A stretch of 64,000 bases of DNA from Chloroflexi bacterium OHK40 (GTDB lineage: Bacteria > Chloroflexota > Chloroflexia > Chloroflexales > Chloroflexaceae). Positions 20,986-47,779 of the stretch are shown in pieces; positions within the stretch are counted from its first letter, which is position 1; each line of letters opens with the position of its first letter. The DNA is taken from positions 1-64,000 of the forward strand of contig SFCB01000291.1 of NCBI GenBank assembly GCA_004367505.1. The letters are read 5' to 3'. The notes beneath the pieces were generated by a model. It ran no database searches. It saw only the letters and a program-made list of their open reading frames with translations, and was not told where the DNA came from. The position numbers and the translations under genes are program-made.

Positions 20986-22029
20986 TTAGGGGATGATCAC
21001 CCCGCGCCCGATGATACGCCGGTGTTTGAAGTCGTCGATAGCGGTATTAATCTGCTCGAGCCGGTAGTGCTGGCCGTGCAGCTTCACGCGGCCCTCGGCG
21101 TTCAGCTCCATCAGCTCAACGAGCTCGAGGTAGTTGCCCACCAGGCTCCCCTCGATCGCGATCTCGCTGATCACCATATGCACGGTAGGCACCTGCACCG
21201 CACCACCGTAGCCAACAATGTAGTGGGTGCCGCCCTGGCGCAGCATCTGCCAGGAGAGTTGCTCGGCCCCCAGCTCGCCCACGAAGTCGATTACGGCGTG
21301 CGCGCCGCCCCGAGTGAGCTCCCGCACCTCCTGGACCACATGATCGCCGCCGTCGAGCACGTGGTGGGCACCCAGCTCCCGCGCCAGCTTGCGAGCGTTC
21401 TCAGAGCGATCGACGGCGATGGTGCGGGCACCGCACAGCTCGTGGAGGGATTGCAGGGCAACGTGGCCCAGGCCACCCACGCCGAGCACCACGCAGTACT
21501 GGCCGGGTGTGAGCTTTCTGGCCGCCTTCTTCGCAACCCGGTAGGCCGTGATGCCAGCGTCGGCCAGGGGCGCCACATCCACCGGGGCGACATTGGGGTT
21601 GAGCTTGATCAGCGCCCGCTCGTTGGTGAGCAGATAGTCGGCGAAGCCACCATCGCAGTTCAGGCCAGGGAAACTGCCGTGCTCGCAGTACATGTCCTCG
21701 CCTCGCCGGCAGCCGAGGCAGACACCGCAGGAGCGCAGCGGATGGCAGATCACCGGATCGCCCACCTTGACCGAGGTAACCCCGGGGCCGACATCTTCGA
21801 CCCAGCCGGCGTTCTCGTGGCCGAGCACGTAGGGCAGCAGGGTGCGCTGCGGGTCCTGGATATCCTTCCAGACGCCCTCGATGATGTGCAGGTCGGTACG
21901 GCAGAGGCCCGCCGCGCCCACGCGCACGATGACTTCGCCCGGCTTGCTGATCTGCGGCGCGGGAATATTGTCGAGCTTGAGCTCGACATTCATGTGCTCG
22001 TCGTACTCATACAGGCGCGCAGCTCTCAT
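20986..22029 (-). CDS. Zinc-dependent NAD(P) alcohol dehydrogenase
   Basis: A 347-residue medium-chain alcohol dehydrogenase oxidising an alcohol to aldehyde or ketone. Catalytic zinc ligands are in GLCRTDLH and GHENAGWVEDVG; the structural zinc loop shows four cysteines in SCGVCLGCRRGEDMYC; the Rossmann motif is VLGVGGLGHVALQ. GGAGG six bases before the ATG at 22029 fixes the start. It is the third gene of a minus-strand set with a DUF59 protein and an amidohydrolase, the order I recall for the accessory genes behind mim/prm-type propane and acetone monooxygenases. A 302-base gap with repeats separates it from the DUF59 gene. Confidence 0.9.
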   Translation of the reverse strand: MRAARLYEYDEHMNVELKLDNIPAPQISKPGEVIVRVGAAGLCRTDLHIIEGVWKDIQDPQRTLLPYVLGHENAGWVEDVGPGVTSVKVGDPVICHPLRSCGVCLGCRRGEDMYCEHGSFPGLNCDGGFADYLLTNERALIKLNPNVAPVDVAPLADAGITAYRVAKKAARKLTPGQYCVVLGVGGLGHVALQSLHELCGARTIAVDRSENARKLARELGAHHVLDGGDHVVQEVRELTRGGAHAVIDFVGELGAEQLSWQMLRQGGTHYIVGYGGAVQVPTVHMVISEIAIEGSLVGNYLELVELMELNAEGRVKLHGQHYRLEQINTAIDDFKHRRIIGRGVIIP

Positions 22030-22331: not shown

Positions 22332-23156
22332 TTAGTCCCCCGGGCCATTCAGAGCCGGCCCGACGAGCAGGGCATCGCCGACGCTTCCGTGGCAGCCGGC
22401 CTGCTCGGGGCGAAACTGGGTACGCAACAAGCCCTCGCACAGCGTCGTGTTGAAGGCGATATTGAGCCGGGCTGCCCGCGAGCGCCGCAGGTAGGCAGCC
22501 AGATCCACCTCGGCCAGCGGCTGCCCCTCTGTAGTGGTAAAAAGCAGCGCCTCAGGGGCCTGGGCAAGGCCGAGCTTGCGGCGCTTGTGCAGGTACTTCT
22601 CCAGGTCAGCGGCGGCCAGGGGCACCCGCAGGGCCGTCCCATCCGGCGTCACGACACGCACATCTTCACCCTGAGGCGTCAGCGCACCGACCCTGAGGGC
22701 GAGGGCGGTAGCTTCATCGATCCCGGCCTGACGCAGCCGGCGCAAGAGCACATCCTGGCGAGCGAGGAAGCCCTTCAGAGTGAAGGTATGCCTGAGCGCC
22801 TCGAGCCCCTCGTCCACCAGATCGTCCGGAAAGGTCTCGGCGAAGGACTTGCCCGCGTTGATCCCCGCGTTGATCTCGTTCTCGGCGCAGTTATTGCGCA
22901 CGAGCACCGTGACTGCCGCGACCCCCGGCACTCGGGCGACTTCATGGCGGATGTCGGAGGACATCAGGAAGACGAAGTTGGGGGCGCACCAGAAGGTCGG
23001 CACGGTGTAGCGCACAGTTACGTGGCCACCGGTGATCGTCACCTCGTCGATGAAGCCGAGGCGGGTGAGCGGCGCATCGAGCTCAGGATCGTAGACCTGA
23101 TCGAGGGCGGCGAAGACCTGATCGCGCGAGAGCGGCACACTGCTGATCGTGCTCAT
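22332..23156 (-). CDS. DUF59/MIP18-type metal-cluster assembly protein with C-terminal extension
   Basis: A 274-residue protein. Residues about 10-105 are a DUF59 (MIP18, PaaD-like) domain: VFAALDQVYDPELDAPLTRLGFIDEV, then VRYTVPTFWCAPNFVFLMSSDI. Stand-alone DUF59 proteins are about 100 residues and act in iron-sulfur or diiron enzyme maturation; here about 160 further residues follow with KYLHKRRKLGLAQ and a cysteine pair late in the sequence. It lies three bases behind the amidohydrolase stop, hence is co-transcribed. The arrangement parallels accessory genes of mim/prm-type diiron monooxygenases, but none is encoded here. Confidence 0.8.
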   Translation of the reverse strand: MSTISSVPLSRDQVFAALDQVYDPELDAPLTRLGFIDEVTITGGHVTVRYTVPTFWCAPNFVFLMSSDIRHEVARVPGVAAVTVLVRNNCAENEINAGINAGKSFAETFPDDLVDEGLEALRHTFTLKGFLARQDVLLRRLRQAGIDEATALALRVGALTPQGEDVRVVTPDGTALRVPLAAADLEKYLHKRRKLGLAQAPEALLFTTTEGQPLAEVDLAAYLRRSRAARLNIAFNTTLCEGLLRTQFRPEQAGCHGSVGDALLVGPALNGPGD

Positions 23157-23159
23157 CGG

Positions 23160-24230
23160 TTAGATCGCCGGCTCGAGGCGCGACGGCTCCTCGCTCACAT
23201 CATCTTCACCGAGGGTCACGGGCGCGCCACGGAGCTGGGCCGCCTTCTGCTCAACGTCGATACCGTAGAGGCGAGCGGCGTTGAGCCCAAGGATCTTGGC
23301 CTTCGTCTCGGCGGTCAGATCGACGCCGTACTCCGCCTTAATATCCTCGGGCAGCTCGAAGGCCATAAACTTATCGATCAGCCAGCCGGGGGTCCAGAGC
23401 GCATAGTCGCTGGCGAAGGTCAGCTTGTCGGGGCCGAGCCAGTAGAGCAGGTTGGCGATCACCTCGGCAAAGTAGCGCGGGCGCGAGTGGATGAAGGGCA
23501 GTGCAACGGCCAGACCGCCCCAAACGTTCGTCTCCTGGGTGGCGATCCAACAGAAGTCCTCGAGCCGTGGCAGGCCGCAATGCTCAACGATAAAGGTCAG
23601 GCCCTGGTAGCGCGTGGCAACCTCGTCAACATCGGCGACGTCGAAGGCGTCGCGGTTGAGCGGCCAGATCGTGGGACCCTTGTGCACGTGGATCCGGGTG
23701 ATCCCGAGCTTCTCGCACTCGGCGAAGAACGGCTGGGCCTCGGGGTCGGTCAGCTTCCAGCCCTTCGAGCCATTGTTCCACTCGGCGGTGTAGAGCTTTA
23801 CGCCCGGGATCCCATACTCCTGCCTGGCACGGCGCAGGGCGTTCAGACCGAGCGGGCCATCCTCACCGTGGCGGGGATCGAAGGAGCCGTTGAGGATCAC
23901 GCGGTCGGGATAGGCCTTCTTTAGCTGGTAGTTGCGCTCGATCGGGTTGAAGCCGGTTTTGTAGAAGTCGAAGAGGTTGGTCGTCTGCAGGATGCACATA
24001 TCGACATAGCCATCGACAAACAGATCCCTGGCCATGTCGTTAACCGAGTACTTCTCGTAGTGCTCGAGGGTCCAGACCCGATCGGGCGGCGAGAGATTCT
24101 TGTGATAGGCGTAGAAACAGTCGATCCAACCTTTACCATACTGGTTGAGCTGGTTTGCGGGGCTAGCGTCCCAGAGGTGTGTGTGGGCATCAATGACGAA
24201 GAGCTCACTACCATCGGCCATGCGATACAT
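23160..24230 (-). CDS. Amidohydrolase-2-family metal-dependent hydrolase
   Basis: A 356-residue TIM-barrel metal hydrolase of the amidohydrolase 2 (PF04909-like) group. Metal-ligand motifs are in order: FVIDAHTHLWD near the N-terminus, ITRIHVHKGPT, FIVEHCGLPRL and LTFASDYALWTPG. GAGGAGG five to six bases ahead of the ATG at 24230 fixes the start; the longer frame is not used. It leads the three-gene set with the DUF59 protein and alcohol dehydrogenase and is transcribed divergently from the sensor kinase gene. Reaction unknown; in monooxygenase operons the homologue is thought to assist maturation or metabolism, but its role is unsettled. Confidence 0.85.
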   Translation of the reverse strand: MYRMADGSELFVIDAHTHLWDASPANQLNQYGKGWIDCFYAYHKNLSPPDRVWTLEHYEKYSVNDMARDLFVDGYVDMCILQTTNLFDFYKTGFNPIERNYQLKKAYPDRVILNGSFDPRHGEDGPLGLNALRRARQEYGIPGVKLYTAEWNNGSKGWKLTDPEAQPFFAECEKLGITRIHVHKGPTIWPLNRDAFDVADVDEVATRYQGLTFIVEHCGLPRLEDFCWIATQETNVWGGLAVALPFIHSRPRYFAEVIANLLYWLGPDKLTFASDYALWTPGWLIDKFMAFELPEDIKAEYGVDLTAETKAKILGLNAARLYGIDVEQKAAQLRGAPVTLGEDDVSEEPSRLEPAI

Positions 24231-24525
24231 ACCGTCCTCCTCTGCTTCATTGCCCTGAGACCATTCGCCGCGATCCACCCTGAAGGCAGCGTCGGTGCAT
24301 GGAAGGAGTGGCCCCGACGACTCGCCGGGACCGGGGAAGAACGCTCTAGCCTCTGACACCAAGGGTTAGCCGCATCTTAGCAGGGTGGGCAGGCGGCGAC
24401 AACCGGGGCCCAGTGAAAACCGGGTGAAAATTTGCCGCAGTGGTATAGACCTCGCCCACGGCTTGTGCTATAACGTGCACATCCCCAGGAGCTGTACGCA
24501 GCCGCGATGCAAGGGTGCGGGCGCA
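24231..24525. promoter_or_regulatory. Divergent control region between amidohydrolase and kinase genes
   Basis: A 295-base intergenic region that must hold promoters in both directions. GCTATAAC near 24468 is a plausible -10 for the kinase. Two close AAAACCGGGTGAAAA-like units around 24414-24430 could be regulator half-sites. No clear consensus pair is present. Confidence 0.35.
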
Positions 24526-27105
24526 ATGGAGCAAACCGGGCGAACAAGCCTTGCTTTGTCGTCGTCCCTCGACATCGAGCAATTCGCACGGCGTCTGGCG
24601 GCGATGCGCGAGGCGTTCCTGGCCACCGGGAGCACCGGGCGGCTCCAGCCACGGACGCTGATCTACGACTCGTGGCGGCGCTGCCGGGCCCTTGCGGTCG
24701 ATGCCGAGCGCAACCTTGCCGGCTTCGGCGCCGCAAGCGACCAGCAACTCGCCGAGCTCCGGGCGCGCAACGAGGGGCTGCTGCTGGCGGCTGGCCCGGT
24801 GCTGGCCAGGCTCGTGGCGATGCTCGCCGATATTGGCTATGTCGTCGCCCTTGGCGACGCGGCGGGCAACCTGCTCGAGGTCGCGGGCGATCCCGAGTGC
24901 CGCCGCCGGCTGGCACGGAAGGGGCTGCTCCCCGGGAGCAACTGGAGCGAGGCAACGGCGGGCACGAACGCGATCGGCACGGCCCTGGCCACCGGGCGGG
25001 TGGTGCAGTTGCTAGCCGCCGAGCACTACTGCGCCGGCTGGCAGGATGTCACATGCACTGCCGCGCCGATCCGGCACCCCGGCAGCGGCGCCCTGGTGGG
25101 GGTGCTCGATATCACCGGCGACTATCGGCTCGCGCAGCCATTCCTCAGTGGGATGCTCGCCGCCGCCGCGCTCGAGGTGCAGCGTGGCCTGATTGCCGGC
25201 CAGCGCGAAGAGCAGGCCCCCGTTCGATTCGCCGGTGTTGCCGTTCCGCCGCCCACTGCCCAGGAGGCCCCGGGCCTTACGCTGCCGCAGCCGGCCCATG
25301 GTGGCGGTTCCTGGCGCGGCTCCCCGGCCGAGCGGCTCGCCGCCGCGACCAGCGTGATGAGTTCGGGGCTTGATCTCGGGCTGACACTCGATCGTGTAGC
25401 GGCTCAGGTGGGGCTGTCGCTCGGGCTGCCCTGTGCCGGTGTGGCGCTCCTCGATAGCCCGGACGGCCCGGTGATCCGGATCTGGGTGGGCGAGAACCCG
25501 CGCACCACCGCCCTCGGCCCAACACTCACAGCGCTGCTCCGCGCGCCCGTTGCCACGGCATGGCTGGCGCACAAGGAGCCAGTCCTGCTGGCCGGTCCGG
25601 CCCAACTACCGCCGGAGCTAGTGGCACCCTGGGCGCAGGCGAACCTCGGGGCCCTGGCACTCTTCCCACTCGTCGCGCCACGGGGCCCATTCGGCCTGAT
25701 CGCCGCCCCACAGCCTGGCGCTGCGCGCTGGGCAGCGGATGAGGTACAGCTTGGCCAGGCCCTGGCCTCCCACGCGGCGATTGCCCTCGAGAACGCCCGG
25801 CAGTTTACGATGCTACGAGCCTATGCGGCGCATACCGAGGCGCTCAACACCCTGACGGTCTTTCTGAACACCCTCCTCGACCCCGGCCAGCACCTCGAGT
25901 TGATACTGCGCCAGATTATTGAGATTACCGATCGTGATGCCGGCCTGATTTGCCTCCGGAGTACGCCTGACGGAGCCCTTACCCCCGCCGCCGTCTATGC
26001 TCTGTCCGTTCCAACAACTGAGCCGCACCCGCCGCTGCCGCCCGCCCTGATACAGCTGGTAGAGGCGGTGGACCTGACCGGACAAGCGCTGCTGCTCTGC
26101 CGCCAGCACGAGTCCGAGCAGGAGGCCGAGGTACTCGTCGCGATGGGTGTCTGCGACGTTGTGGCTGTGCCGCTCACCCAGAACACCAGCAGGCTGGGAG
26201 TGCTGGTGGTGGCCCATCGCCGCCACCACCAGATGAGCCGAGAAGCCTTGCTCCTCTTCCAGACGATCGCGCAACAGCTTGCCCTGACGCTCAGCAACGC
26301 CCGCCTGCGCCGAGCCGCCAGCGAGAACGAAGCCCTCCGCGAGGCCGACCAGCTCAAGAGCGCGTTTCTGGCCATGGTCACCCATGAGCTGCGCTCCCCA
26401 CTGACGGCCATCCGCGCCTCGGTCGAGGGGCTCCTCGATCGGGCCAGCCCGGTCCCGGCGAGCGAGGCTGTCGGGCTGCTCCAGAATATCTCCCGCCAGG
26501 CAGGCAGGCTGGGGCGCTTCGTGGACCAACTGCTCGACCTGTCGCGGATCGAGGCGGGCACACTCGCCATTGACCGTGAGTGGGTCGAGGTGGCCGCCAT
26601 GCTCGATGACGTGCTGAGCTCGTTCCAGCGCCGCGCCCCTGCCTGTGTGGTCGAGCGGGCTTTCTCGCCAGACCTGCCCCTGCTCTACCTCGACCAGGCT
26701 CTGACAGTCCAGGTGTTCTGGAATTTGCTGGAGAACGCTCAGAAATACGGGCCGCCCCAGGGGCCGATCCGAGTCGAGGCCTTTTGTACCGGCGCCCGGG
26801 TATTGATCAGCGTGGCCGATCGTGGCCCCGGGGTTGCGCCGCAGGATCGCACGCGCATTTTCAACCACTTCGTGCGCCTCGATCGGGATCGGCGTGCCCA
26901 GATCGCCGGTAGCGGCCTTGGCCTGGCGATCTGCCGTGGAGTCGTTGAGGCTCACGGCGGGCAGATCTGGGTGGACGATCGGCCCGGCGGCGGCAGCGTC
27001 TTCCGGGTCGCATTGCCGCTGGCCACGCCAGATCTGGTGGCCCTGCACCGATCTGAGCCCGCCCCGCCAGGGCTCACGACAAGCAAAGGGGGGGCCGGAC
27101 GATGA
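24526..27105 (+). CDS. Sensor histidine kinase with AcoR/MimR-type N-terminal sensor and two more GAF domains
   Basis: An 859-residue cytoplasmic sensor kinase. Residues about 40-215 match the sensory module of AcoR/MimR-type sigma-54 activators: IYDSWRRCRALAVD, LPGSNWSEATAGTNAIGTALA, LAAEHYCAGWQDVTCTAAPIRHP and GVLDITGDY. Two GAF-like domains follow (about 268-430 and 437-600), then HisKA with the phosphorylated His620 in MVTHELRSPLTAI, and HATPase_c with NLLENAQKYG, DRGPGV and GSGLGLAICRGVVEAHGG. No membrane helix. It overlaps the response regulator gene by ATGA. It is divergent from the amidohydrolase set, the probable target. The sigma-54 AAA output domain usually attached to this sensor is replaced by a kinase. 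Confidence 0.9.
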   Translation: MEQTGRTSLALSSSLDIEQFARRLAAMREAFLATGSTGRLQPRTLIYDSWRRCRALAVDAERNLAGFGAASDQQLAELRARNEGLLLAAGPVLARLVAMLADIGYVVALGDAAGNLLEVAGDPECRRRLARKGLLPGSNWSEATAGTNAIGTALATGRVVQLLAAEHYCAGWQDVTCTAAPIRHPGSGALVGVLDITGDYRLAQPFLSGMLAAAALEVQRGLIAGQREEQAPVRFAGVAVPPPTAQEAPGLTLPQPAHGGGSWRGSPAERLAAATSVMSSGLDLGLTLDRVAAQVGLSLGLPCAGVALLDSPDGPVIRIWVGENPRTTALGPTLTALLRAPVATAWLAHKEPVLLAGPAQLPPELVAPWAQANLGALALFPLVAPRGPFGLIAAPQPGAARWAADEVQLGQALASHAAIALENARQFTMLRAYAAHTEALNTLTVFLNTLLDPGQHLELILRQIIEITDRDAGLICLRSTPDGALTPAAVYALSVPTTEPHPPLPPALIQLVEAVDLTGQALLLCRQHESEQEAEVLVAMGVCDVVAVPLTQNTSRLGVLVVAHRRHHQMSREALLLFQTIAQQLALTLSNARLRRAASENEALREADQLKSAFLAMVTHELRSPLTAIRASVEGLLDRASPVPASEAVGLLQNISRQAGRLGRFVDQLLDLSRIEAGTLAIDREWVEVAAMLDDVLSSFQRRAPACVVERAFSPDLPLLYLDQALTVQVFWNLLENAQKYGPPQGPIRVEAFCTGARVLISVADRGPGVAPQDRTRIFNHFVRLDRDRRAQIAGSGLGLAICRGVVEAHGGQIWVDDRPGGGSVFRVALPLATPDLVALHRSEPAPPGLTTSKGGAGR

Positions 27106-27788
27106 GCGGCGGCCAGCGCATTCTGCTCGCCGACGACGACCCCGGGATTGTCGAGGCGATCCGCGCGGCGCTCGAAGCTCACGCCTTCGAGGTTGTCAGC
27201 ACCGGAGACGGCGAGGCGGCGCTCGCCGCGTTTGAGCATACGGCACCACACCTGGTGCTGCTCGACCTGGTGATGCCACGGGCGAGCGGGCTCGATGTCT
27301 GCCGGAGGATCCGCCAGCGCGCGGCGACGCCGATTATCGTGCTGAGCGTCAAGGGTTCGGAGGCCGACATCGTCAGCGTACTCGATAGCGGCGCCGATGA
27401 CTATCTGGTCAAGCCGTTCCGGCTCAGTGAACTGCTGGCGCGCGTGCGCGCCGTCTTGCGCCGGGGGAGCCGCATCGCGAGCCGCCTCGTCATTTGCCAG
27501 GATCTCGAGATTGATACCGACCAGCGGAGCGTATCACGCGCAGGGCAACCTGTGGCCCTGACCCCAACGGAGTACGCGGTGCTTGCCGAACTGGCGACCA
27601 ACGTCGGGCGGGTTGTCACCTCGCGCCAGCTGCTCCAGCGGGTCTGGGGGCCGCAGTACAGCGATGCTACCGACTATGTCAAAGGGGTGATCAGGCGGTT
27701 GCGGGTCAAGCTCGAGCCCGATCCGGCCCACCCGCGCTACCTGCTTACCGAGCCACACCTCGGCTACCGGCTCAATGACACGCTGTAG
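27102..27788 (+). CDS. OmpR/KdpE-type response regulator
   Basis: A 228-residue DNA-binding response regulator. The receiver domain (1-120) has the acidic pocket LADDDP, the phospho-acceptor Asp55 in LLDLVMP, and lysine in YLVKPF. The C-terminal winged helix (130-228) has LTPTEYAVLAELATNVGRVVTS, LLQRVWGPQY and VKGVIRRLRVKLEPD, of OmpR type. It starts inside the kinase stop codon (ATGA), so kinase and regulator are a coupled pair. Targets are probably the divergent amidohydrolase operon and/or the downstream acyl-CoA synthetase. Confidence 0.95.
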   Translation: MSGGQRILLADDDPGIVEAIRAALEAHAFEVVSTGDGEAALAAFEHTAPHLVLLDLVMPRASGLDVCRRIRQRAATPIIVLSVKGSEADIVSVLDSGADDYLVKPFRLSELLARVRAVLRRGSRIASRLVICQDLEIDTDQRSVSRAGQPVALTPTEYAVLAELATNVGRVVTSRQLLQRVWGPQYSDATDYVKGVIRRLRVKLEPDPAHPRYLLTEPHLGYRLNDTL

Positions 27789-37930: not shown

Positions 37931-39658
37931 TCAGCCCTCGCCGCGAGTCTTTGGCGCGTGCCAGCCCTCGCCAAGCCCGGCGCGGGTAGCCCAATCGCCG
38001 AAAGGCTCGCCGGGCTCGCGTTCGGCGCGCCAGCGCTCAAGTAGCTCGCCGAGCAACCCGGGTAGCTCGGAAGAGCGCACTCCGGCCCGGTAGAGGCGGG
38101 CCAGGCGTGTACCTGCGGGGCTTCCGCCTACGTAGACGTTGTAGAGCCCCAGGCTGCGGCCGATCACCCCGAGCTCAGCACTCGGCGGGCGCGAGCAGCT
38201 GTTGGGGCAGCCGCTGAGCCGGAAGCTTACGTGCTCACTACCGAGGCCCCGTGCCTCCAGGGCGCCAAGCAACTCGGGCAGGTAGCGCTCAGCCTCCGCC
38301 ACAGCCTGACCGCAGGTGGGCAGGGCCGGGCATGCCAGCGCCCCACGCCGCAGCGCGCTCAGCCCGGCCTCACCCTCCCGGGTTGCCAGGCCGTACTCGG
38401 CGATCAGCGCCTCCACCAGTGGCCGCTGCGCCGGCGCGATCCGGGCCAGCACAATATTCTGCTGCGCCGTCAGGCGCACTTCGGCGCCGGTGGCGGCAAT
38501 AATCGCGCGCAGGCCCGAGCGCACCCGCAGCGGGCCCGCGTCCTTTACGCGCCCGCTGTCCACCCAGATCCCCACCAGCCAGTTGCCGTCGGCCTGCTGC
38601 TGCCAGCCCAGGTGGTCGTGAGCGGCGTAGGAGCCAACCTCGGCCGGCGCCGCAAGGGCCTGGCCCAGACGGCGGGCCAACTCGGCGCGGAACCACTCCA
38701 CGCCACGCTCCTCCAGCACGTACTTGAGCCGGGCGTGCTTACGGTTGGTGCGATCGCCCTCATCACGGTAGATCGCGCTGGCAGCTTCGACCACGGCGAG
38801 GGCCTGCTCGGGCGGCAGAAAGCCCACCCGATCGCCGAGGCGCGGGAAGGTCTCGGCCTTGCCGTGGGTGCTGCCCAGGCCGCCGCCAGCCACCAGATTG
38901 AAGCCTAGCAACTGGCCATCCGCGACCACTGCCTCCAAGGCCACATCGTGGGTAAAGAGATCGACGCAGTTATCCTGGGGCAGGCCGATCGCCATCTTGT
39001 GCTTGCGCGGCATGTAGCTCGGGCCGTAGAACGACTCCTCGCGGTTGGGCGTCACCTTTACCCGCTTGCCATCGGCCAGCACCTTCTCCCCATCGAGCCA
39101 GAGCTCGTAGTAAGCGGTACTCTCGGGCAGGAAGCGCTCGTTGAGCTGCGCGGCCACCGCCTGGAGGTCGAAGGCGTGGCCCGGCAAGAGATCGGCCACC
39201 GGGCACGTCACGATATTGCGAGCCACGTCGCCACAGGCGGCGTAAGTGGTCACCAGGCGCTCATTGAGGGCCTTGATCAGAGGTTTGAGGTTGGCCTTGC
39301 CCACACCGTGGAACTGCAGGGCCTGGCGGGTGGTGATGCGCAGAGTGCCGTTCGCGTAGCTGCCCGCAAGCTCGTCTGCCAGCAAGTACTGCTCGGCCGT
39401 CATCCGGCCGCCGGGGGCGCGGGTGCGCACCATAAACTGCCAGGCCCGCTCCTGGCCAGCCTTCTTGCGCGCCTGCCGCTCGTCGCGATCGTCCTGCTGG
39501 TAACTCCCGTGAGATTTGAGCAGCACCTCGGCATCGTCGCCCAGGTTCGGCCGGCTCAGGTCGGCCAGTTCCTCCAGCAGCACCCCCCCGAATCCAGGGT
39601 TGGCGAGCTTGATCTCTTCGACGTGCGACAGTGGCCTCACAGGGTCGGCGATACTCAT
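37931..39658 (-). CDS. sir: Sulfite reductase hemoprotein (siroheme, 4Fe-4S)
   Basis: A 575-residue assimilatory sulfite/nitrite reductase-fold enzyme reducing sulfite to sulfide with six electrons. Both ferrite-reductase half-domains and both siroheme/SIR domains are present: ANGTLRITTRQALQFHGV, ACGDVARNIVTCPVADLL, and the four cluster cysteines in CPALPTCGQAV and SGCPNSC. The latter two pairs ligate the 4Fe-4S cluster bridged to siroheme. KVTPNREESFYGPSYMPRKHK matches the sulfite/CysI type rather than nitrite reductase. No flavoprotein CysJ is encoded, so ferredoxin is the likely donor. GAGGAAG before 39658 sets the start. Confidence 0.92.
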   Translation of the reverse strand: MSIADPVRPLSHVEEIKLANPGFGGVLLEELADLSRPNLGDDAEVLLKSHGSYQQDDRDERQARKKAGQERAWQFMVRTRAPGGRMTAEQYLLADELAGSYANGTLRITTRQALQFHGVGKANLKPLIKALNERLVTTYAACGDVARNIVTCPVADLLPGHAFDLQAVAAQLNERFLPESTAYYELWLDGEKVLADGKRVKVTPNREESFYGPSYMPRKHKMAIGLPQDNCVDLFTHDVALEAVVADGQLLGFNLVAGGGLGSTHGKAETFPRLGDRVGFLPPEQALAVVEAASAIYRDEGDRTNRKHARLKYVLEERGVEWFRAELARRLGQALAAPAEVGSYAAHDHLGWQQQADGNWLVGIWVDSGRVKDAGPLRVRSGLRAIIAATGAEVRLTAQQNIVLARIAPAQRPLVEALIAEYGLATREGEAGLSALRRGALACPALPTCGQAVAEAERYLPELLGALEARGLGSEHVSFRLSGCPNSCSRPPSAELGVIGRSLGLYNVYVGGSPAGTRLARLYRAGVRSSELPGLLGELLERWRAEREPGEPFGDWATRAGLGEGWHAPKTRGEG

Positions 39659-39815
39659 GGTACTTCCTCTGCGATGGGTTGGAACCTGGAGCTCGGATAC
39701 CGGGGTGCCACGATCCTGGGAGCCACCCCAGGCAGCGCGCGGCGATCCAGTGGGCCTCCAGCGTACGATGACCAGGCGGCCCATACGCGCCAGGTGTAAC
39801 GCGGCACGGTGACGA

Positions 39816-40367
39816 TCAATCGGCGGCGCGAGCGCGGGCAGGCTCCAGATAGCCGAGCGCTTCGAGGGCCGCCAGGATGCGGGCGACGCTCTGCTCGGGG
39901 CGCTCCTCCGCGCTCCGGATCGTCACCTCGGGGTCCAGAGGCGGCTCGTACGGGTCGCTCACGCCGGTGAACTGGGGGATCTCGCCGGCCAGGGCCTTCT
40001 TGTAGAGGCCCTTCACATCGCGGGCGATCGCCGTCTCTAGAGGCACATCAACGAACACCTCGACGAAACGTCCGATCCGCTCGCGCACCTCGTCGCGCAC
40101 CGCGCGGAAGGGCGAGATCGCGGCGGCGATCGCGACGACATCGTTGCGGGTAAGCACCTCGCAGACCCAGCCGATCCGCCGGATGTTGGTGTCGCGGTCC
40201 TCGCGGGAGAAGCCGAGCCCCTTCGAAAGATGGGTCCGTACAACGTCACCGTCGAGCACCTCCACCTTGCGGCCCCGGGCGCGCAGCTCGCGCTCAACAA
40301 GCGTGGCGAGGGTGGTCTTGCCGGCGCCCGAGAGGCCGGTGAACCAGAGCGTGAAGCCAGTGGTCAT
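39816..40367 (-). CDS. cysC: Adenylylsulfate kinase
   Basis: A 183-residue APS kinase phosphorylating APS to PAPS. Walker A is in [13 protein letters not shown], followed by [32 protein letters not shown] and the family's [26 protein letters not shown] and YEPPLDPEV. Full length. The start at 40367 lies 11 bases from AGGAG; an in-frame ATG at 40388 is an alternative without a binding site. It sits between the ABC permease and sulfite reductase genes in the cluster. Because the CysH here looks APS-specific, PAPS may be made mainly for other uses. Confidence 0.93.
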
Positions 40368-40435
40368 GAGCACATGCACTCCTGTCATACATCGCCGATT
40401 CGCGGCGATTGGGATCACGGTCGCCGCCAGCGCGG

Positions 40436-41245
40436 CTAGGCCAATCCCCAACGCTCGCGCACCCGGCGCTCGAATGGCGCGAAGAGGATCTGGTCAATAC
40501 ACACACCGATGATCACGATGAGCAACATCACCGCCATCACCTGGGCGGCGTCGTTCAGGTCGCGGCCGATCTGGAGCAGGTTGCCGAGGCTCAGCGTGAA
40601 GTAGAGCAACTCCCCGGCCATCAGCGAGCGCCAGGCGAAGGACCAGCCCTGCTTGAGCCCGCTGAGGATGGCCGGGAGGGCCGCCGGTAGCACCACCTGG
40701 GTGTAGACGGCGGGCCCCCGCGCACCGAGATTGCGCGCCGCCTTGAGGTAGAGCGGCGGGGTGTTCTTCACGCCAGCCTGGACCCCGAGGATGATCGAGA
40801 AGAGCGCTCCGAGCACCACCACGAAGATGATCGCCCGCTCGTTGAGGCCGAACCAGAGGATGGCGAGCGGCAGCCAGCAGACACTCGGCAGGGCCTGCAG
40901 ACCGAGCACCAGCGACCCCAGCGTCTCGTCCAGCACCTTGATCCGCCCGATCAGCAGGCCCAGCACTAGGCCGAGGGCCAGCGAGATGCCGTAGCCGATC
41001 GCCAGGCGCCGCAGGCTCACCACGGCGCCGGTGACGAACGTCCCCCGCTGCACCCCTTCGACCAGCGTCTCGATGACGGTGAGCGGTCCGGGCAGGATCC
41101 AGGGTGGCCAGAACCCCGCGCGGGCCACGCCCTCCCAGAGGGCCAGGAGCGCCAGGTAAAAGCCCAGCCGGCGCACCCACGGCAGCAGAGCAGCGCGGCT
41201 CGGGCCGGCGGCCCGGGGCCGGTTGCGCAAGATCTCAGCGGCCAT
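40436..41245 (-). CDS. ABC transporter permease, nitrate/sulfonate/taurine type
   Basis: A 269-residue inner-membrane permease with about six helices and the inner-membrane coupling motif of this class in [19 protein letters not shown]. It resembles SsuC/TauC. AAGGAGGG four bases ahead of 41245 sets the start, which overlaps the end of the ATPase gene by 11 bases. With the ATPase and the lipoprotein it forms an importer. In its setting between sat and cysC it probably imports sulfate or organosulfonates. Confidence 0.88.
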
Positions 41246-42086
41246 GGCGCCCTCCTTCCATCTCGGCGGCGGCGTGGAGCACCGCCAGAATCTCGGCCGC
41301 CTGGTCCACCAGGGCGTGGTCTTCCAGGCGACGCGGGCGCGGCAGGCGGATCCGGAACTCACGCACGATCCGCCCAGGCCGGGGCGAGAAGACCAGCACC
41401 CGGTCGCCCAGGGCCACCGCCTCGCGCACGTTGTGGGTTACAAAGAGGATCGTCTTGCGGGTCGCGGCCCAGATCGCCTCCAGTTCGGCCTGCAGCCGAT
41501 CACGGGTAAGGGCATCCAACGCGCCGAAGGGCTCGTCCATCAGCAGCACGGCGGGATTGATCGCGAGCGCCCGGGCCAGGGCCACCCGCTGGCGCATGCC
41601 GCCGGAGAGCTGGTGCACATAGCTGCGCTCAAAACCGCCAAGGTGCACCAGATCAATGAAACGTCGCGCCACTGCCGCGCGCTCGGCCCTGGGCATGCCA
41701 GCCTGGCGCAGACCAAACTCGACATTGTGCTGCACGTCCAGCCAGGGGAAGAGGGCCGCCTCCTGGAAGAGCAACACCCGGTCGGTGTCGGTACCACGTA
41801 CCTCGCGCTCGCCCGCCCAGACGCTACCACCGCTGGCGGGCTCGAGCCCGGCCACGATGCTCAACAGGGTGGATTTGCCGCAGCCGCTCGGGCCCAGCAA
41901 GCAGACGAACTCCCCGGCGCCGACCTCCAGGTCGATCGGCTGCAACGCCGGAATGCGGCGGTCGCGGTCCGCGAAGGTCTTATGGACGCCGACGATCCGC
42001 AGGGGGATGCCCTCACCCTTGGCCTGCGGCTCCGCCACTGCCCGCGCAACCACCTGCCGTGATTCACGAGCCGTCTGATCAACCAT
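41235..42086 (-). CDS. ABC transporter ATP-binding protein, nitrate/sulfonate/taurine type
   Basis: A 283-residue ATPase of the SsuB/TauB class. Walker A GPSGCGKSTLL, Q-loop LLFQEAALFPWLDV, signature LSGGMRQRVALARAL, Walker B VLLMDEPFGALD and switch histidine in LFVTHNVREAV are complete. It energises import by the adjacent permease and binding lipoprotein, all in one overlapping set. Substrate follows from the binding protein. Confidence 0.92.
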   Translation of the reverse strand: MVDQTARESRQVVARAVAEPQAKGEGIPLRIVGVHKTFADRDRRIPALQPIDLEVGAGEFVCLLGPSGCGKSTLLSIVAGLEPASGGSVWAGEREVRGTDTDRVLLFQEAALFPWLDVQHNVEFGLRQAGMPRAERAAVARRFIDLVHLGGFERSYVHQLSGGMRQRVALARALAINPAVLLMDEPFGALDALTRDRLQAELEAIWAATRKTILFVTHNVREAVALGDRVLVFSPRPGRIVREFRIRLPRPRRLEDHALVDQAAEILAVLHAAAEMEGGRHGR

Positions 42087-42118
42087 CGGCGCCTCCTCTC
42101 GCTATCAGCCGGCGCGCA

Positions 42119-43180
42119 TCAGGGGAGCGCGATCGGGTCAAGGCCCTCCTCGGCGAGCACGGCATTGAGCGGCCCCAGGTCGTAGATCCCGCTCAGGTCG
42201 GGCTGCTCGTCGCCCAGAAAGCCAAGCTCAAAGGCGTGGCCGGCCATAACGAACAGGGTGCTCGCCAGAGGGTCGTAGGTAAACGCCAGGGTTGTCAGCG
42301 CCTGGTCGAGCACCTGGCTGGGCAGCGGGACGCTGGTGAGGCGCTCGATCTCCTGGTTGACGAGGCTCCTGGCCGCCTCGGGGTCTTCCTGGATGTCGCG
42401 CACCGTGGCAACGTGGCCGCGCAGGAAGGCCTCCACCAGGTCGGGCCGCGCGTTGAGGAACGCGGTACTGACGATCACGTGGGTTGTCACGAAAGAGCCA
42501 TCGGGCCACTGGCTGCGCTCATCGATAAAGACCTTTCCGCCGGCTTCCTGGATGAGGCGGGTTGCCCAGGGCTCAGGCACCCAGGCACCGTCGATCGCAC
42601 CCTGCTGGAAGAGCGTGAGGATCTCGGGGTTCTGGGTGGGTAGGACGGTCACCGTCCCGCCCTGATCGGCGGTCTTCAGGCCATGCGCCCGCAGCAGGTG
42701 GCGCATGGCCACATCCTGGGTGCCACCGAACTGCGGCGTGGCGAAGGTCTTACCCGCAAGGTCGGCGGGGCTGGCGATACCAGCATCGGGGCGCACGATC
42801 AAGCTGGCGCCACCGCTACACGCCCCGGCGATGATCCGCAAGGCCTGGCCATTGCTGCGCACATAGCCGTTGATAGCGGGGTTGGGGCCAACATAGCCGA
42901 TATCGATCTCGCCGGCGAAGAGCGCTTCGATCAGGGCGGGGCCGGCATTGAAGGTCTTCAGGTCGAGGGTGACGTTTGGCCCGAGGGCCTCCTGAAACGT
43001 ACCCCTGGCGCTGCCCACCAGGGCCACGGCGTGGGTAAGGTTAGGAAAGAAGGCCAGGCGGAGCGTGATCGACCCATCGGGGCCCGGGGCAGCCGGAGCG
43101 CCACGGCCACAAGCCGCAACCACGAGCAGCAGCGGCAGCAGGAGCGCGAGCAGGGACCGGCTAGATCCTCGTCCGTTCAC
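42119..43180 (-). CDS. ABC transporter substrate-binding lipoprotein (SsuA/NrtA-like)
   Basis: A 353-residue lipoprotein: hydrophobic signal LLALLLPLLLVVAAC with the lipidated cysteine at 24. The mature part is a type II periplasmic-binding fold of the nitrate/sulfonate class: LRLAFFPNLTHAVALVG, GEIDIGYVGPNPAINGY, KTFATPQFGGTQDVAMRH and IDGAWVPEPWATRLI. The start is a GTG with GAGGAGG seven bases upstream. It delivers substrate to the permease/ATPase encoded next. Sulfate, sulfonate or taurine are candidates; the operon favours a sulfur compound. Confidence 0.88.
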   Translation of the reverse strand: MNGRGSSRSLLALLLPLLLVVAACGRGAPAAPGPDGSITLRLAFFPNLTHAVALVGSARGTFQEALGPNVTLDLKTFNAGPALIEALFAGEIDIGYVGPNPAINGYVRSNGQALRIIAGACSGGASLIVRPDAGIASPADLAGKTFATPQFGGTQDVAMRHLLRAHGLKTADQGGTVTVLPTQNPEILTLFQQGAIDGAWVPEPWATRLIQEAGGKVFIDERSQWPDGSFVTTHVIVSTAFLNARPDLVEAFLRGHVATVRDIQEDPEAARSLVNQEIERLTSVPLPSQVLDQALTTLAFTYDPLASTLFVMAGHAFELGFLGDEQPDLSGIYDLGPLNAVLAEEGLDPIALP

Positions 43181-43311
43181 GGTCGTGCCTCCTCGCTGAA
43201 CGAGCAGCAGGCGGACGGACGCAGAGGTGCAGACGCCGGAAGTGCACATAGTATAGGGCGCGCGTCATCACGATGGAAGACCACGAGAGAGCACGACAGG
43301 GCCACCCTTTC

Positions 43312-44475
43312 TCATGCGGCCCGCAGGGCCTCGATCAGCACCCGGGCTACCTCCGGGCGGGTAAACTCAGGAGGCGGCGCCTCGCCCGCGCGCAGCAACT
43401 CGCGCACCCTGGTGCCGCTCAGGGTCAGGTGGTGGGCGCCGTCGTGGGGGCAGGTGCGCGAGGATGCCACGCTGGCGCAGGTGCGGCAGTAGAAGGTATG
43501 CTCGAAGCGCAGCGGCGTGATCGCCAGGTCACCGGGCCGGAGCGTGTCGAAGATCCGCTGGGCATCGTAGGTGCCGTAATAGCTGCCCACGCCCGCGTGG
43601 TCGCGCCCAACGATAAAGTGCGTGCAGCCGTAGTTCTGGCGGGCGATGGCGTGGAGCAGCGCCTCGCGCGGGCCGGCGTAACGCATCGCAGCGGGGAAGA
43701 CGGCCAGCAAGGTACGGGTGGCCGGGTAGTAACCCTGCAGCAGCACCTCGTAGGAGCGCACCCGCACCTCGGCGGGCAGATCGTCGTCCTTGGTAGCGCC
43801 GACCAGCGGGTGGAGGAAGAGACCATCCACAAGCTCCAGGGCAGCCTTCTGGATGTACTCGTGGGCGCGGTGGATGGGGTTGCGAGTCTGGAAGCCAACG
43901 ACGCTGCGCCAGCCCCGCTCGGCGAAGGCCCGACGGCTCTCGGCGGGAGTCAGATGGAGGGTGGGGAAGGGGCGCCGGGGCGGCTCGATCAGCCACACAT
44001 CGCCGCCCAGCAGCACGGGGCCCTGGCCGTAGAGACGGGCCACGCCGGGGTGGGCCGCATCGGTGGTGCGGTAGACCTCCGCAGCCTCGCGGCGCGGATC
44101 GGCGTGGTAGCGCTCGTGCAGCTCCAGCAGGCCCACCAGGGCGCCATCGCCGGCGTGGAGGGCCACGGGCTCGCCTTCCCGCAGCGCACGGGCCTGCGCC
44201 TCGTCCACCGCCAGGGTGATCGGGATGGGCCAGAGTGTCCCGTCGGCGAGGCGCGCCTCGCCCACCACGCGCTCATAGTCGGCCCGGCCGAGGAAGCCCT
44301 TGAGCGGGCTGAAGACCCCCGTCGCGATCAGCTCCAGATCGGAGAGGCCCACCTCGTTCAGGGTAACCCGGGGGGCCTGGCGGGCGCGGGCGATGGCCTC
44401 ATCGCGGGCGGAGCCCCGCAGCACGCGGTCCGTCAGCGTGCCGCCATGGGGCGGAATGGTTGGGTTCGTGGTCAC
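43312..44475 (-). CDS. sat: Sulfate adenylyltransferase (ATP sulfurylase)
   Basis: A 387-residue single-chain ATP sulfurylase making APS from sulfate and ATP. The active-site motifs are [12 protein letters not shown] (Q-x-R-N-P-x-H-x-x-H) and [12 protein letters not shown]; a C-terminal zinc-type cysteine set is seen in [23 protein letters not shown]. The GTG at 44475 has AGGAG seven bases upstream and gives the usual bacterial length. It lies between cysH and the ABC importer genes. No kinase domain is fused; cysC is separate. Confidence 0.93.
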
Positions 44476-44560
44476 GCGCAATCTCCTGGGTGCAGCTTGA
44501 CAACTGGCGGTTGAGGGTGAGCGCAACGCTGCGCGTGTATGGCGGCGCCGCCCGGGACTC

Positions 44561-45274
44561 CTACAGATGGATGCCGCACTCGGTCTTTCCGGTGCCGGCC
44601 CAGCGCCCGCCCCGTGGGTTGTCGGCGCTGGCCGCGCGCGTGCAGGGCACGCAGCCGAGGCTCGGGTAGCCCCGGTCGAGCAGCGGATTGTAAGGGACAC
44701 CGTTGGCATGGATGTAGGCCCAGACCTGGCGCTCGGTCCAGTAAGCCAGGGGGCTCAGCTTGAGCAACCCATGTTTCGCGCTCCACTGCACAGGCTCCGT
44801 GGCAGCCCGTTGGGCCGTCTGGTCGCGGCGGATGCCGCTCACCCAGGCCTGGTAGGGGCGCAGAGCAGCGGCCAGCGGGGCCACCTTGCGGATCCCACAA
44901 CAGCGGTCGGGGTCACGTGCGTAGAGCTGGGGGCCGTACTGGCGCTCTTGCTCGTCGGGGGTAAGCGCCGGGCGACGCCACTCGATCGCGATATCGTAAT
45001 GGCGGGCGGCCTCCCGGGCCAGGGCGTAGGTCTCCGGGAAGAGCAGGTCGGTGTCGAGAAAAACCACGGCAATCGGCAGGCGCTGCCGGGCGACGATGTC
45101 GAGCAGCACCATTCCGGCGGCACCACCGAAACTGCAGGTGAGCACGGCCCGCCCGGCAAATGTATCGGCCGCCCAGGCGAGCAACTCCTCCGGCGGGCGC
45201 TCCCGGAAGCGCTCATTGAGGGCCTCCAGCTCCTCAGAGCTCCAGGCCGCAAGCTTCTCCGACAGCATGACCAT
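44561..45274 (-). CDS. cysH: APS/PAPS reductase with 4Fe-4S motif
   Basis: A 237-residue reductase converting APS (or PAPS) to sulfite. The PP-loop-like start is [16 protein letters not shown]. Four cluster cysteines, CCGIRK (125, 126) and LGCVPC (208, 211), are the mark of the 4Fe-4S, typically APS-using, form found in plants and many bacteria; the catalytic cysteine is in the C-terminal ECGIHL (Cys233). A consensus promoter lies directly upstream (45342-45370). Next gene in the direction of transcription is sat. Confidence 0.93.
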
Positions 45275-45341
45275 CGCGTTCCTCTCAGCAACTATGGGCG
45301 CGTCCGTGTGGTGATGGCAACGGCGGGTTACGAACGAGGCA

Positions 45342-45370
45342 ATCCTAATATATTTGATCTACATTGTCAA
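45342..45370 (-). promoter_or_regulatory. Consensus sigma-70 promoter for cysH
   Basis: On the minus strand TTGACA (45365-45370) and TAGGAT (45342-45347) are separated by exactly 17 AT-rich bases. The -35 overlaps the stop codon of cbiX, so this is an internal promoter that can drive cysH, sat and downstream genes separately from siroheme synthesis. Confidence 0.75.
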
Positions 45371-46113
45371 GATAAACCATCATCGACCGCGCCTGCGGCC
45401 CGTGCCACCAGCACCTCGGCGATGGCAGGGTCGTAGCCGAGGTAGGCGGCGAGCACGAGATGCGCGGCGGGGTGGCGCGCCTGCGCTTCAGCAATGGCGG
45501 CTGGCAGATCCTCGGCCGCGTGGCCACCAAGCTGCAGCAGGTAGGGCACCACGACGATCGAGTCATCGCCGCGAGCCACGTGAGCGGCGATGGCAGTCGG
45601 GATATCCGGCTCATTCAGGCCAAGGAAGCAGACCCCTACAGCGGCGAAGGCGCCCTGGGCAGCGAGCATCCGGGCCACCGTGTACACAGGCGTATTGCTC
45701 GCCGGGTCGGGGCTACCGTGGGCGGCAAGGAGCACGGCGCTACCGGGCACCGCTCCCGCCGCCACCGCCCGCCGGCGCACCAGATCAGCGAGGGCGGGAT
45801 GGGCGCCGAGGGGCTCAACCTGGGTTATGGGCAGATCAGGATTGGCGGCCCGCAGCCCATCGAGGGCGCGAGGCAGAGCCGCGCCGGTAAAGTAGCCGGG
45901 CACAAGGAAGTAGGGCAGCACCGTAACGGCCGTGGCGCCACGGGCACGCAGGCGAGCGAGGGCCTCGGCGAGGGGCGGGCGACTGTAGTTGAGGAATCCA
46001 GCGCCCACCAGCGGTGCCGTGCCGGCCTCGCGAAGCCGGGCAGCCAGGCGCAGCATGGCCGCCCCCGAGCCGGGGCGAAGACTACCGTGGCCAACAAGGA
46101 GCAGTGCGCGCAC
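45367..46113 (-). CDS. cbiX: Sirohydrochlorin chelatase, CbiX-type
   Basis: A 248-residue class II chelatase built of two homologous halves: MRALLLVGHGSLRPGSGAAM at the start and AVLLAAHGSPDPASNTPV in the middle, each with a metal-binding histidine in an HGS motif; PYFLVPGYFTG and PYLLQLGGHAAEDLP are the paired loops. It inserts Fe (for siroheme) or Co into sirohydrochlorin. In this cluster iron insertion for sulfite reductase is expected. The start is a GTG, ten bases after the methyltransferase gene. Confidence 0.9.
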   Translation of the reverse strand: MRALLLVGHGSLRPGSGAAMLRLAARLREAGTAPLVGAGFLNYSRPPLAEALARLRARGATAVTVLPYFLVPGYFTGAALPRALDGLRAANPDLPITQVEPLGAHPALADLVRRRAVAAGAVPGSAVLLAAHGSPDPASNTPVYTVARMLAAQGAFAAVGVCFLGLNEPDIPTAIAAHVARGDDSIVVVPYLLQLGGHAAEDLPAAIAEAQARHPAAHLVLAAYLGYDPAIAEVLVARAAGAVDDGLS

Positions 46114-46122
46114 GGCCAGTGC

Positions 46123-46911
46123 TCAGTCGGCTGCGGCAGGGCGATCGACCCGCAGCGCCCGGCTCGGATCGAACCAGGCCAGCGCCGCGTGGAGGCCAAC
46201 CACCTCACCCACCACCAGCAGCGCCGGTGGCTCCAGGCCGGCGCGGGACACGGCAGCCGCGATCGTGCCGAGCGTCGCTACCACCAGGGCCTGCTCGACG
46301 GTGGTGCCCCAGCGCACCACGGCGGCGGGTGTCTCGGCGGCACGGCCGTGGGCGATCAGCTGCGCGCTGATCACGCCCAGGCGGCCGGTGCCCATCAGGA
46401 AGACGAGCGTATCGATGCCCCGGGCCAGAGCCTGCCAGCGCAGCCGCGACTCCTCCCGGTCGGCGGGCTCGTGGCCAGAGACGACGGCGAAGGATGCGGC
46501 GTGGCTACGGTGAGTGAGAGGAATCCCCGCGTAGGCCGGCGCGGCGATCGCGGAGCTCACGCCGGGCACTACCTCCCACGGCACGCCGGCCTCCTGCAGG
46601 GCCTCGGCCTCCTCGCCGCCCCGCCCGAACACGAAGGGGTCGCCGCCCTTCAGCCGCACCACGTACAGGCCAGCGCGGGCCCGCTCCACCAGCAGCCGGT
46701 TGATCCAGGCCTGGGGGCGCGTAGGGCCACCAGCCCGTTTGCCCGCGTCCACGATCTCGGCGCCGGGCCGGCACTCATCGAGCAACTCGTGGCCGATCAG
46801 CGCATCGTGGACCACCACGTCGGCGGCGCGCAGGCGGCGCAGGCCCTTGACGGTGATTAGCTCGGGGTCGCCGGGGCCGGCGCCCACCAGGGAGACCAGG
46901 CCAGGGCTCAT
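46123..46911 (-). CDS. cobA: Uroporphyrinogen-III C-methyltransferase
   Basis: A 262-residue SUMT that methylates uroporphyrinogen III twice to precorrin-2, the branch step to siroheme and cobalamin. Motifs: SLVGAGPGDPELITVKGLRRL at the SAM site, VVVHDALIG, VRLKGGDPFVFGRGGEE, VVPGVSSAIAAPAYAGIPLTHR and LVFLMGTGRL. Full length without the CysG dehydrogenase domain, which is encoded just upstream and overlaps it by ATGA. Confidence 0.95.
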   Translation of the reverse strand: MSPGLVSLVGAGPGDPELITVKGLRRLRAADVVVHDALIGHELLDECRPGAEIVDAGKRAGGPTRPQAWINRLLVERARAGLYVVRLKGGDPFVFGRGGEEAEALQEAGVPWEVVPGVSSAIAAPAYAGIPLTHRSHAASFAVVSGHEPADREESRLRWQALARGIDTLVFLMGTGRLGVISAQLIAHGRAAETPAAVVRWGTTVEQALVVATLGTIAAAVSRAGLEPPALLVVGEVVGLHAALAWFDPSRALRVDRPAAAD

Positions 46912-47564
46912 GCGGCCACCTCGGCACGCTGCGGGCCGAGGGCGCCCTGGATCACGGCGGCCACCAGATCGTCGCTGCCCTCGCGCAGCCAGCCCAGGGC
47001 CTGCTCGGAGCAGAGCCAGGCGAGCAGCGCGTCCCGGAGAGCGCCGGGCAGGCGGCTCTCCGGCAGATCGCGCAGGGCCGCCGCGAACGAGAGCACACGG
47101 GTGTACTCGGGGCCGTAGCGCCCAGCGAGCTCGCTCCGCAGCCGGGCGGCCAGCGCGGGACTGCTACCGCCCGTCGAGACGGTGAGCAGCAGGGCGCCGC
47201 GGCGCAGCGTGGCTACGGTGTGGAAACTACCGGCGCCCGGATCGTCGGCCACATTCACCAGGACACCGCAGCGGCGCGCCTCTACGGCAATCCGGGCGTT
47301 CGTCGCCCGCTCGTCGGTGGCAGCGATCACCAGCACGGCGCCTGCCAGATCGTCTTCCTTGAAACGGCGTGGGAGCTGGTCGAGCTGGCCGGCATCGCGC
47401 CAGGCGGCGAGGGTGGGGGTGAGCACCGGGCTGATCACCAGCGGGCGGGCGCCCGCCGCGATCAAGCCCGCAACCTTCCGCTCGGCCACCTGGCCGCCGC
47501 CTACCACCACACAGCGGGCCGTGGCGAGATCCGTCAGGATGATCGGGTAGCTGCTTGTTGCCAT
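46908..47564 (-). CDS. Precorrin-2 dehydrogenase (CysG N-terminal/Met8-like)
   Basis: A 218-residue NAD-dependent dehydrogenase making sirohydrochlorin from precorrin-2. The N-terminal Rossmann motif CVVVGGGQVAERKVAGLIAAGA, VLVIAATDERATNARIA and VNVADDPGAGSFHTVATLRRGALLLTVSTGGSSPALAARLR are typical. The start is an ATG at 47564. It leads the siroheme trio and thus the whole minus-strand cluster. An AT-rich region with two ATTGTTG units lies upstream at 47600-47635. Whether it also chelates iron, as Met8 does, is unclear since CbiX is present. Confidence 0.9.
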   Translation of the reverse strand: MATSSYPIILTDLATARCVVVGGGQVAERKVAGLIAAGARPLVISPVLTPTLAAWRDAGQLDQLPRRFKEDDLAGAVLVIAATDERATNARIAVEARRCGVLVNVADDPGAGSFHTVATLRRGALLLTVSTGGSSPALAARLRSELAGRYGPEYTRVLSFAAALRDLPESRLPGALRDALLAWLCSEQALGWLREGSDDLVAAVIQGALGPQRAEVAA

Positions 47565-47599
47565 CGCCTCTGCGCCGGCGGCTGGCGACGCCCGGCGCC

Positions 47600-47660
47600 A
47601 TTGTTGATAATATCGCCCTGGATTGTTGAGTTTATAACAGAGAAGTGGCACGCTGTCAAC
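47600..47660 (-). promoter_or_regulatory. AT-rich promoter region of the siroheme genes
   Basis: A local AT-rich patch upstream of the precorrin-2 dehydrogenase gene; ATTGTTG occurs twice about 20 bases apart, and GATATTATC on the minus strand is a possible -10. The pairing with a -35 is not clear. Confidence 0.4.
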
Positions 47661-47726
47661 TACAGCGTGACCACCGACTGCGGCGCCTGGTTGCGCACGG
47701 TAAAGATCCCGCAACCTTCCCCGCTG

Positions 47727-47779
47727 TGTGATCTTGATCACCGCAAAGGCACCTCACCGGGCTCCTATGATCGAGATCA
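47727..47779 (+). promoter_or_regulatory. Two CRP/FNR-like palindromes upstream of nrfHA
   Basis: GTGATC-TT-GATCAC (47728-47741, within TGTGA-N6-TCACC) and TGATC-GA-GATCA (47768-47779) are perfect inverted repeats resembling CRP/FNR-family sites. Their centres are 39 bases apart, close to four helical turns, and both lie within 80 bases of the nrfH start. Control by an oxygen- or nitrite-responsive CRP/FNR-family regulator is likely; none is encoded in the window. Confidence 0.6.

Follow-up and report, generated by a model that had tools for sequence, protein, structure and literature searches.

In some members of the Chloroflexaceae and relatives, a sensor domain known from activators of short-chain alkane and alcohol oxidation genes forms part of a histidine kinase, which has its own response regulator and lies beside alcohol-oxidation genes and a conserved DNA site. 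The case analysed here is found in a 64,000-nucleotide stretch of the Chloroflexi bacterium OHK40 genome (contig SFCB01000291.1, positions 1 to 64,000), hereafter the window. We consider it likely that a soluble kinase with an AcoR/MimR-type sensor acts through an OmpR/PhoB-type regulator on an intergenic direct repeat, and that this arrangement goes back to a one-time fusion in which the link to the enzyme genes was kept. The system offers a clear case of a sensor keeping its target genes while the whole output machinery was exchanged; both operator and promoters can be recognised, and the carriers stand at different stages of rpoN loss.

The kinase and regulator genes overlap by 4 bp and lie where the preliminary description had placed them, with the following make-up:

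24526..27105, plus strand: histidine kinase gene, 859 aa, with an AcoR/DhaR-type sensor followed by GAF, GAF, HisKA and HATPase_c
24526..25212, plus strand: AcoR/MimR/DhaR-type N-terminal sensor module, residues 1-229, conserved core about 42-222 (NCBIfam DhaR, invariant residues, tree)
25387..25791, plus strand: first GAF domain, residues 288-422 (Pfam GAF_2)
25894..26292, plus strand: second GAF domain, residues 457-589 (Pfam GAF, E 1e-23)
26356..27024, plus strand: HisKA (residues 611-678) and HATPase_c (724-833), both by Pfam, with the phosphoacceptor His620 in THELRSP
27102..27788, plus strand: OmpR/PhoB-type response regulator, 228 aa (Pfam Response_reg and Trans_reg_C), with receiver Asp55 and a winged helix

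The kinase start at 24526 is backed by a promoter-like site at 24446-24474, which is downstream of the alternative GTG at 24385. The catalytic motifs of the kinase are intact (H box THELRSP at residue 619, N, G1 and G2 boxes), and together with the receiver aspartate and Trans_reg_C domain of its partner they are those of a HisKA kinase with an OmpR/PhoB regulator; autophosphorylation and phosphotransfer are predicted. A Pfam scan of the whole kinase detected neither Sigma54_activat nor HTH_8, that is, neither the AAA+ domain with GAFTGA nor the C-terminal Fis-type helix-turn-helix of enhancer-binding proteins. The earlier view that an AcoR-class sensor continues here, without the usual AAA sigma-54-interaction domain, into two GAF domains, HisKA/HATPase and an overlapping OmpR-type regulator was borne out. 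No evident membrane segment was seen in the hydropathy profile of the kinase (best 19-residue value 1.9), and therefore its sensor is most likely cytoplasmic.

The N terminus had been assigned to the AcoR/MimR class by its motifs, which we located as SWRRC (residue 49), NWSEATAGTN (residue 139) and AEHYCAGW (residue 165). Profile searches with residues 1-229 agreed with this assignment: the DhaR equivalog was the sole match among 18,950 NCBIfam models (E 4e-16, residues 42-196), and no Pfam family was matched at E<=1. The similarity is therefore specific to DhaR/AcoR proteins, and the candidate reading as a generic GAF kinase was ruled out. A PDB search with the sensor gave one relative, DhaR (4lrx, E 1e-4), and searches of genomes and plasmids returned AcoR-type regulators at about 30-44% identity. 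In the alignment, S49, W50, R52, E142, G146 and H167 were invariant in 10/10 kinases and in 34/34 non-kinase AcoR-type regulators, and T147 and N148 were kept in all but one or two of these 44 sensors. By the DhaR model and these invariant residues, the kinase carries the N-terminal sensor of AcoR-class enhancer-binding proteins. The AlphaFold model of the sensor was poor (mean pLDDT 55) and too weak for a fold search.

Divergently from the kinase lie three genes:

23160..24230, minus strand: amidohydrolase (Pfam Amidohydro_2) of the prm/mim accessory type, 55-64% identical to copies in monooxygenase clusters
22332..23156, minus strand: MIP18/DUF59 iron-sulfur assembly-type protein (Pfam FeS_assembly_P)
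20986..22029, minus strand: zinc-binding alcohol dehydrogenase (Pfam ADH_N, ADH_zinc_N), 46-67% identical to the alcohol dehydrogenases (ADHs) of such clusters

Judged by homology, this triad, complete in the window, is the accessory set that accompanies propane-type diiron monooxygenases in prm/mim clusters, whose regulators elsewhere are of the AcoR type. The three genes are also found inside the mimABCD-GroEL clusters of Gemmobacter, Caballeronia, Aminobacter and Rhodococcus plasmids, and in Rhodococcus and Mycobacterium prmABCD is followed by a conserved hydrolase/DUF59/ADH set, together with a Fis-family regulator (PMC4428276). Moreover, an AcoR-type regulator was present within 16 kb of a close MimA in 18 of 20 plasmid records. 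The proposed resemblance of the divergent operon to the accessory genes of MimR/AcoR-type regulators thus proved to be an occurrence of the same prm/mim set, with the linkage kept across genera. An actinobacterium on acetone has abundant amidohydrolase and ADH proteins related to these (PMC7176365). The window itself holds no adjacent mimABCD and GroEL genes; in the window genome both are on contig C239. None of the Chloroflexus-group and Roseiflexus carriers tested had a PF02332 monooxygenase, and alkane oxidation therefore cannot be the general role of the circuit.

Elsewhere in the window, a sulfur-assimilation-like cluster was recognised by eye from the translations at 37931-47741 (sulfite/nitrite reductase, ABC transporter, sulfate adenylyltransferase, PAPS reductase and siroheme genes), and a single borderline Rfam CRISPR-DR28 match at 3656-3679 (35.6 bits against a cut-off of 35) is probably due to chance.

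Three elements were recognised between the kinase and the amidohydrolase:

24413..24430, plus strand: direct repeat GTGAAAA-CCGG-GTGAAAA with an 11-bp period, the proposed response-regulator operator, conserved in the kinase loci examined
24446..24474, plus strand: proposed sigma-70 promoter of the kinase, TAGAC ... TGCTATAAC (extended -10), at a conserved spacing of 34-36 bp from the repeat in 9/10 loci
24373..24382, minus strand: proposed extended -10 element for the divergent genes, reading TGCTAAGATG on that strand (sequence, spacing)

The repeat is the sole match in the window at up to two mismatches (0.02 expected), and GTGAAAA-N4-GTGAAAA was intergenic in every kinase locus examined, with one mismatch in G061. 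In whole-genome scans, exact copies were confined to the kinase intergenic region in the kinase genomes searched and were absent from six control genomes; the repeat is thus, by its sequence, conserved and dedicated to kinase loci. Its distance to the kinase -10 is 34-36 bp but 45 bp in G251; to the amidohydrolase -10, the measured loci of g3 (a genus of the window's family) have 19-20 bp, and the window genome (G000) and G061 have 30-31 bp, so that the spacing differences at both promoters amount to about one helical turn. Two direct repeats with an 11-bp period near a promoter are the mark of a PhoB/OmpR-type operator, and the spacing behaves as expected of a PhoB-like activator site, to which the regulator would presumably bind. 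Taken together, the kinase, the regulator and the repeat look like a dedicated local two-component circuit. The sigma-70 output was unsupported as written in the preliminary description; it may now be argued from the promoter-like sequences and the regulator's family. No -24/-12 sigma-54 promoter was detected at 24231-24525 with up to two mismatches allowed, and the window-wide number of such matches (42 versus a shuffle mean of 29) was not informative. G206 and G274 each have two copies of the repeat in the same intergenic region. In both genomes (L147, 10000-11020, in the case of G206), the operator is interrupted by a toxin-antitoxin-like gene pair of the MazF-like/ribbon-helix-helix kind, with a duplicate of the site on either side of the insert.

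One further copy of the repeat, with one mismatch, was found in the window genome at C239:28400-28417, with the mim-cluster GroEL gene about 7 kb away. It precedes a KDPG aldolase operon that also encodes a B12 diol/glycerol dehydratase and has a BTAD-type regulator divergent to it, and lies about 28-30 bp from a TGCTACGAT element, as at the amidohydrolase. Since one-mismatch chance matches occur in these genomes, the near-copy is only suggestive of this operon as a possible second target of the regulator. At this locus (L265, 9401-16426), the dehydratase is fused and the regulator opposite the operon is of the BTAD-AAA-TPR type. A shared operator was also sought at mimA of G000 and G061, and a different 11-bp repeat, ACAAACGC, was found there, next to CTATACT (L031 about 11600, L225 about 4122), suggesting that the monooxygenase in these two genomes is under a different OmpR-type regulator. 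Control of mimABCD by the kinase pair is thus unsupported in the window genome.

Kinase scans covered 400 Chloroflexota genomes, 82 Chloroflexales genomes and 29 genomes of the family of G251; several genomes in the survey are metagenome-assembled (MAGs). Twelve kinases of this type were detected in Chloroflexota, namely in 11/82 Chloroflexales genomes and in G251: seven in genus g3, one in the window, one in G061 (also of the window's family), two in Roseiflexus MAGs (L034, whose contig is that of G323, and L035, whose contig is that of G431) and that of G251. The last genome belongs to another family than the window's (87% complete, 6% contamination), carries the kinase and the mim genes on one contig, and was the only one of the 29 in its family with such a kinase. 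In L035/L235 (Roseiflexus MAG SKYG45), the N-terminal part of the kinase gene has an in-frame stop, so that either the copy has decayed or the assembly is at fault. The response regulator directly follows the kinase in every locus whose contig continues, and amidohydrolase-DUF59-ADH is divergent from the kinase wherever the contig extends; G251 is the exception, mimABCD-amidohydrolase taking the divergent position there. In G061 a single contig carries mimABCD-GroEL and, about 10 kb further on, the kinase. Eleven of the 400 genomes had an amidohydrolase at 70% identity or more, and nine of these eleven had the kinase. The anticipated vicinity of such kinases to these operons was thus observed.

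In a tree of 44 sensor domains, the kinase sensors formed one clade (support 100/98), which in this unrooted tree adjoined six regulators, including the monooxygenase-linked ones of Rhodococcus, G231 and G376, at 94/90. A grouping of the kinase sensors with proteobacterial monooxygenase-linked (mim) regulators was rejected by the AU test (p 0.0014); a grouping with short winged-helix regulators was not rejected (p 0.10). A single origin of the kinase sensors is thus shown at the sequence level, as are their domain make-up and conserved synteny. The earliest branches among them were G000, G061 and G251. The Roseiflexus G323 sensor nested within the g3 copies, which suggests that this kinase was acquired by lateral transfer. 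Beyond Chloroflexota the survey was limited to one genome-collection scan by exact peptide words and to plasmids; none of the best 60 plasmid matches to the sensor was annotated as a kinase, some of the records carrying no annotation.

The preliminary description had also placed the kinase in a lineage with little or no sigma-54 use, as a rewiring of the same input to a new output. Against the claimed scarcity, the rpoN search found a full-length RpoN of 450 aa with an intact RpoN box in the window genome, and one canonical GAFTGA activator beside it; the other AcoR-type activator of this genome has a damaged GAFTGA. Among the kinase carriers, with G404 and G431 left out of the tally, rpoN is kept in G000, G061 and G251, absent from G274, G134, G118, G052 and G323, and reduced to stop-interrupted remnants in G086 (G086:C57:58287) and G206 (G206:C40:59323) of genus g3. 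The claim therefore fails for the window genome and stands for the carriers that lost rpoN. In genus g3, where rpoN is a remnant in two genomes and gone from others, an ongoing loss of sigma-54 is visible. No GAFTGA match was found in the nearest relatives of the sensor (G376, G231, two Rhodococcus plasmids, G193 and G226), and GAFTGA-less sister activators occur mostly in genomes without rpoN. GAFTGA-less, sigma-70-dependent relatives such as DhaR and TyrR exist (PMC3162934). As the sister activators already lack GAFTGA, the direct donor of the sensor was probably not a working sigma-54 activator, and the escape from sigma-54 probably began before the kinase fusion. This refines the earlier account: the kinase/OmpR-type output of the rewiring stands, but probably not the donor that it implied.

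Direct conversion of a working sigma-54 activator, driven by rpoN loss as first proposed, thus seems improbable to us: the five kinase genomes without rpoN and the two with broken remnants would agree with it, but rpoN is intact in the earliest-branching carriers, and the sister activators, found mostly in rpoN-less genomes, have no GAFTGA. Equally improbable is that the N-terminal domain has been kept for dimerisation, with the signal (redox, cyclic nucleotide or energy state) entering through the GAF domains. Two extra GAF domains are present and GAF is a common kinase input; however, the N-terminal domain is the best conserved part among the kinases (58-68% identity, versus 31-37% in the GAF region and 52-67% in the kinase core) and holds all the invariant AcoR-class residues. 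Its better conservation relative to the GAF region points to this domain as the main input of the kinase.

A somewhat stronger, though still rather unlikely, alternative is that the circuit serves general alcohol or ketone breakdown with no link to a diiron monooxygenase, the shared gene set reflecting independent reuse of an ADH module. Most carriers lack a monooxygenase, and in Thermomicrobium roseum the triad goes with an IclR regulator, no monooxygenase being annotated in its vicinity. However, the G251 and G061 kinases share contigs with mimABCD as described above, and the nearest sensor relatives are mim/prm-linked.

In the fused sensor kinase that we favour, a short-chain alcohol or ketone, a ligand type suggested by analogy with BmoR- and Mim-type systems, would be recognised in the cytoplasm by the N-terminal domain, upon which the kinase would autophosphorylate at His620 and phosphorylate Asp55 of the regulator. 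A dimer of the regulator would bind the 11-bp-period repeat at 24413-24430 and activate the sigma-70 promoters on either side, that of amidohydrolase-DUF59-alcohol dehydrogenase and that of kinase-regulator, the latter amounting to positive feedback. Ligand, phosphotransfer, DNA binding and the sign of regulation are all predicted steps. As for origin, an AcoR-class sensor from the actinobacterial/Chloroflexota prm/mim regulator branch would have been joined once to a GAF-GAF kinase, and the fused module would have retained its link to the same enzyme genes. It is also possible, at a little short of even confidence, that the prm/mim alkane/alcohol sensor left sigma-54 in two steps, by loss of GAFTGA and then, once and in Chloroflexota, by replacement of its whole output with a kinase and an OmpR-type regulator acting on the same genes via a new operator; in G251-like strains the kinase would switch on the monooxygenase. 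The pair might serve as a two-component biosensor for short alcohols or ketones, and it is a candidate for the control of the poorly studied propane-type monooxygenases and alcohol dehydrogenases of Chloroflexota.

Among known systems, Rhodococcus BCP1 and Mycobacterium chubuense NBB4 have two-component genes adjoining smoABCD, which encodes a diiron monooxygenase of group 6 (PMC4428276, PMC8784404). As in the present case, a GAF histidine kinase is next to monooxygenase and ADH/chaperonin genes; however, the response regulator there is LuxR-type, the monooxygenase is of group 6, and, compared by description, an AcoR-type sensor is not reported for these kinases (PMC4428276, PMC8784404). BmoR of Thauera butanivorans regulates a short-alkane monooxygenase that is induced by alcohol products (PMC8784404); by description it is likewise an alcohol-induced regulator tied to such an enzyme, but a sigma-54 activator. 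Regulators of about 400 aa on Tsukamurella, Streptomyces and Deinococcus plasmids share an AcoR-class sensor without AAA, whereas they are one-component proteins with a weak Trans_reg_C-like winged helix. In two cases (Tsukamurella, Streptomyces) they adjoin an aldehyde dehydrogenase. These regulators (L221, L222, L223) represent another output swap of the AcoR-type sensor. The AcoR/DhaR/MimR-type enhancer-binding proteins, lastly, share the N-terminal sensor class and the flanking hydrolase, DUF59 and ADH (and GroEL) genes. Unlike these activators, including the Fis-family regulator of prmABCD (PMC4428276), the window protein has no AAA+ sigma-54 domain and no Fis helix-turn-helix, and its output is instead a kinase with an OmpR-type regulator.
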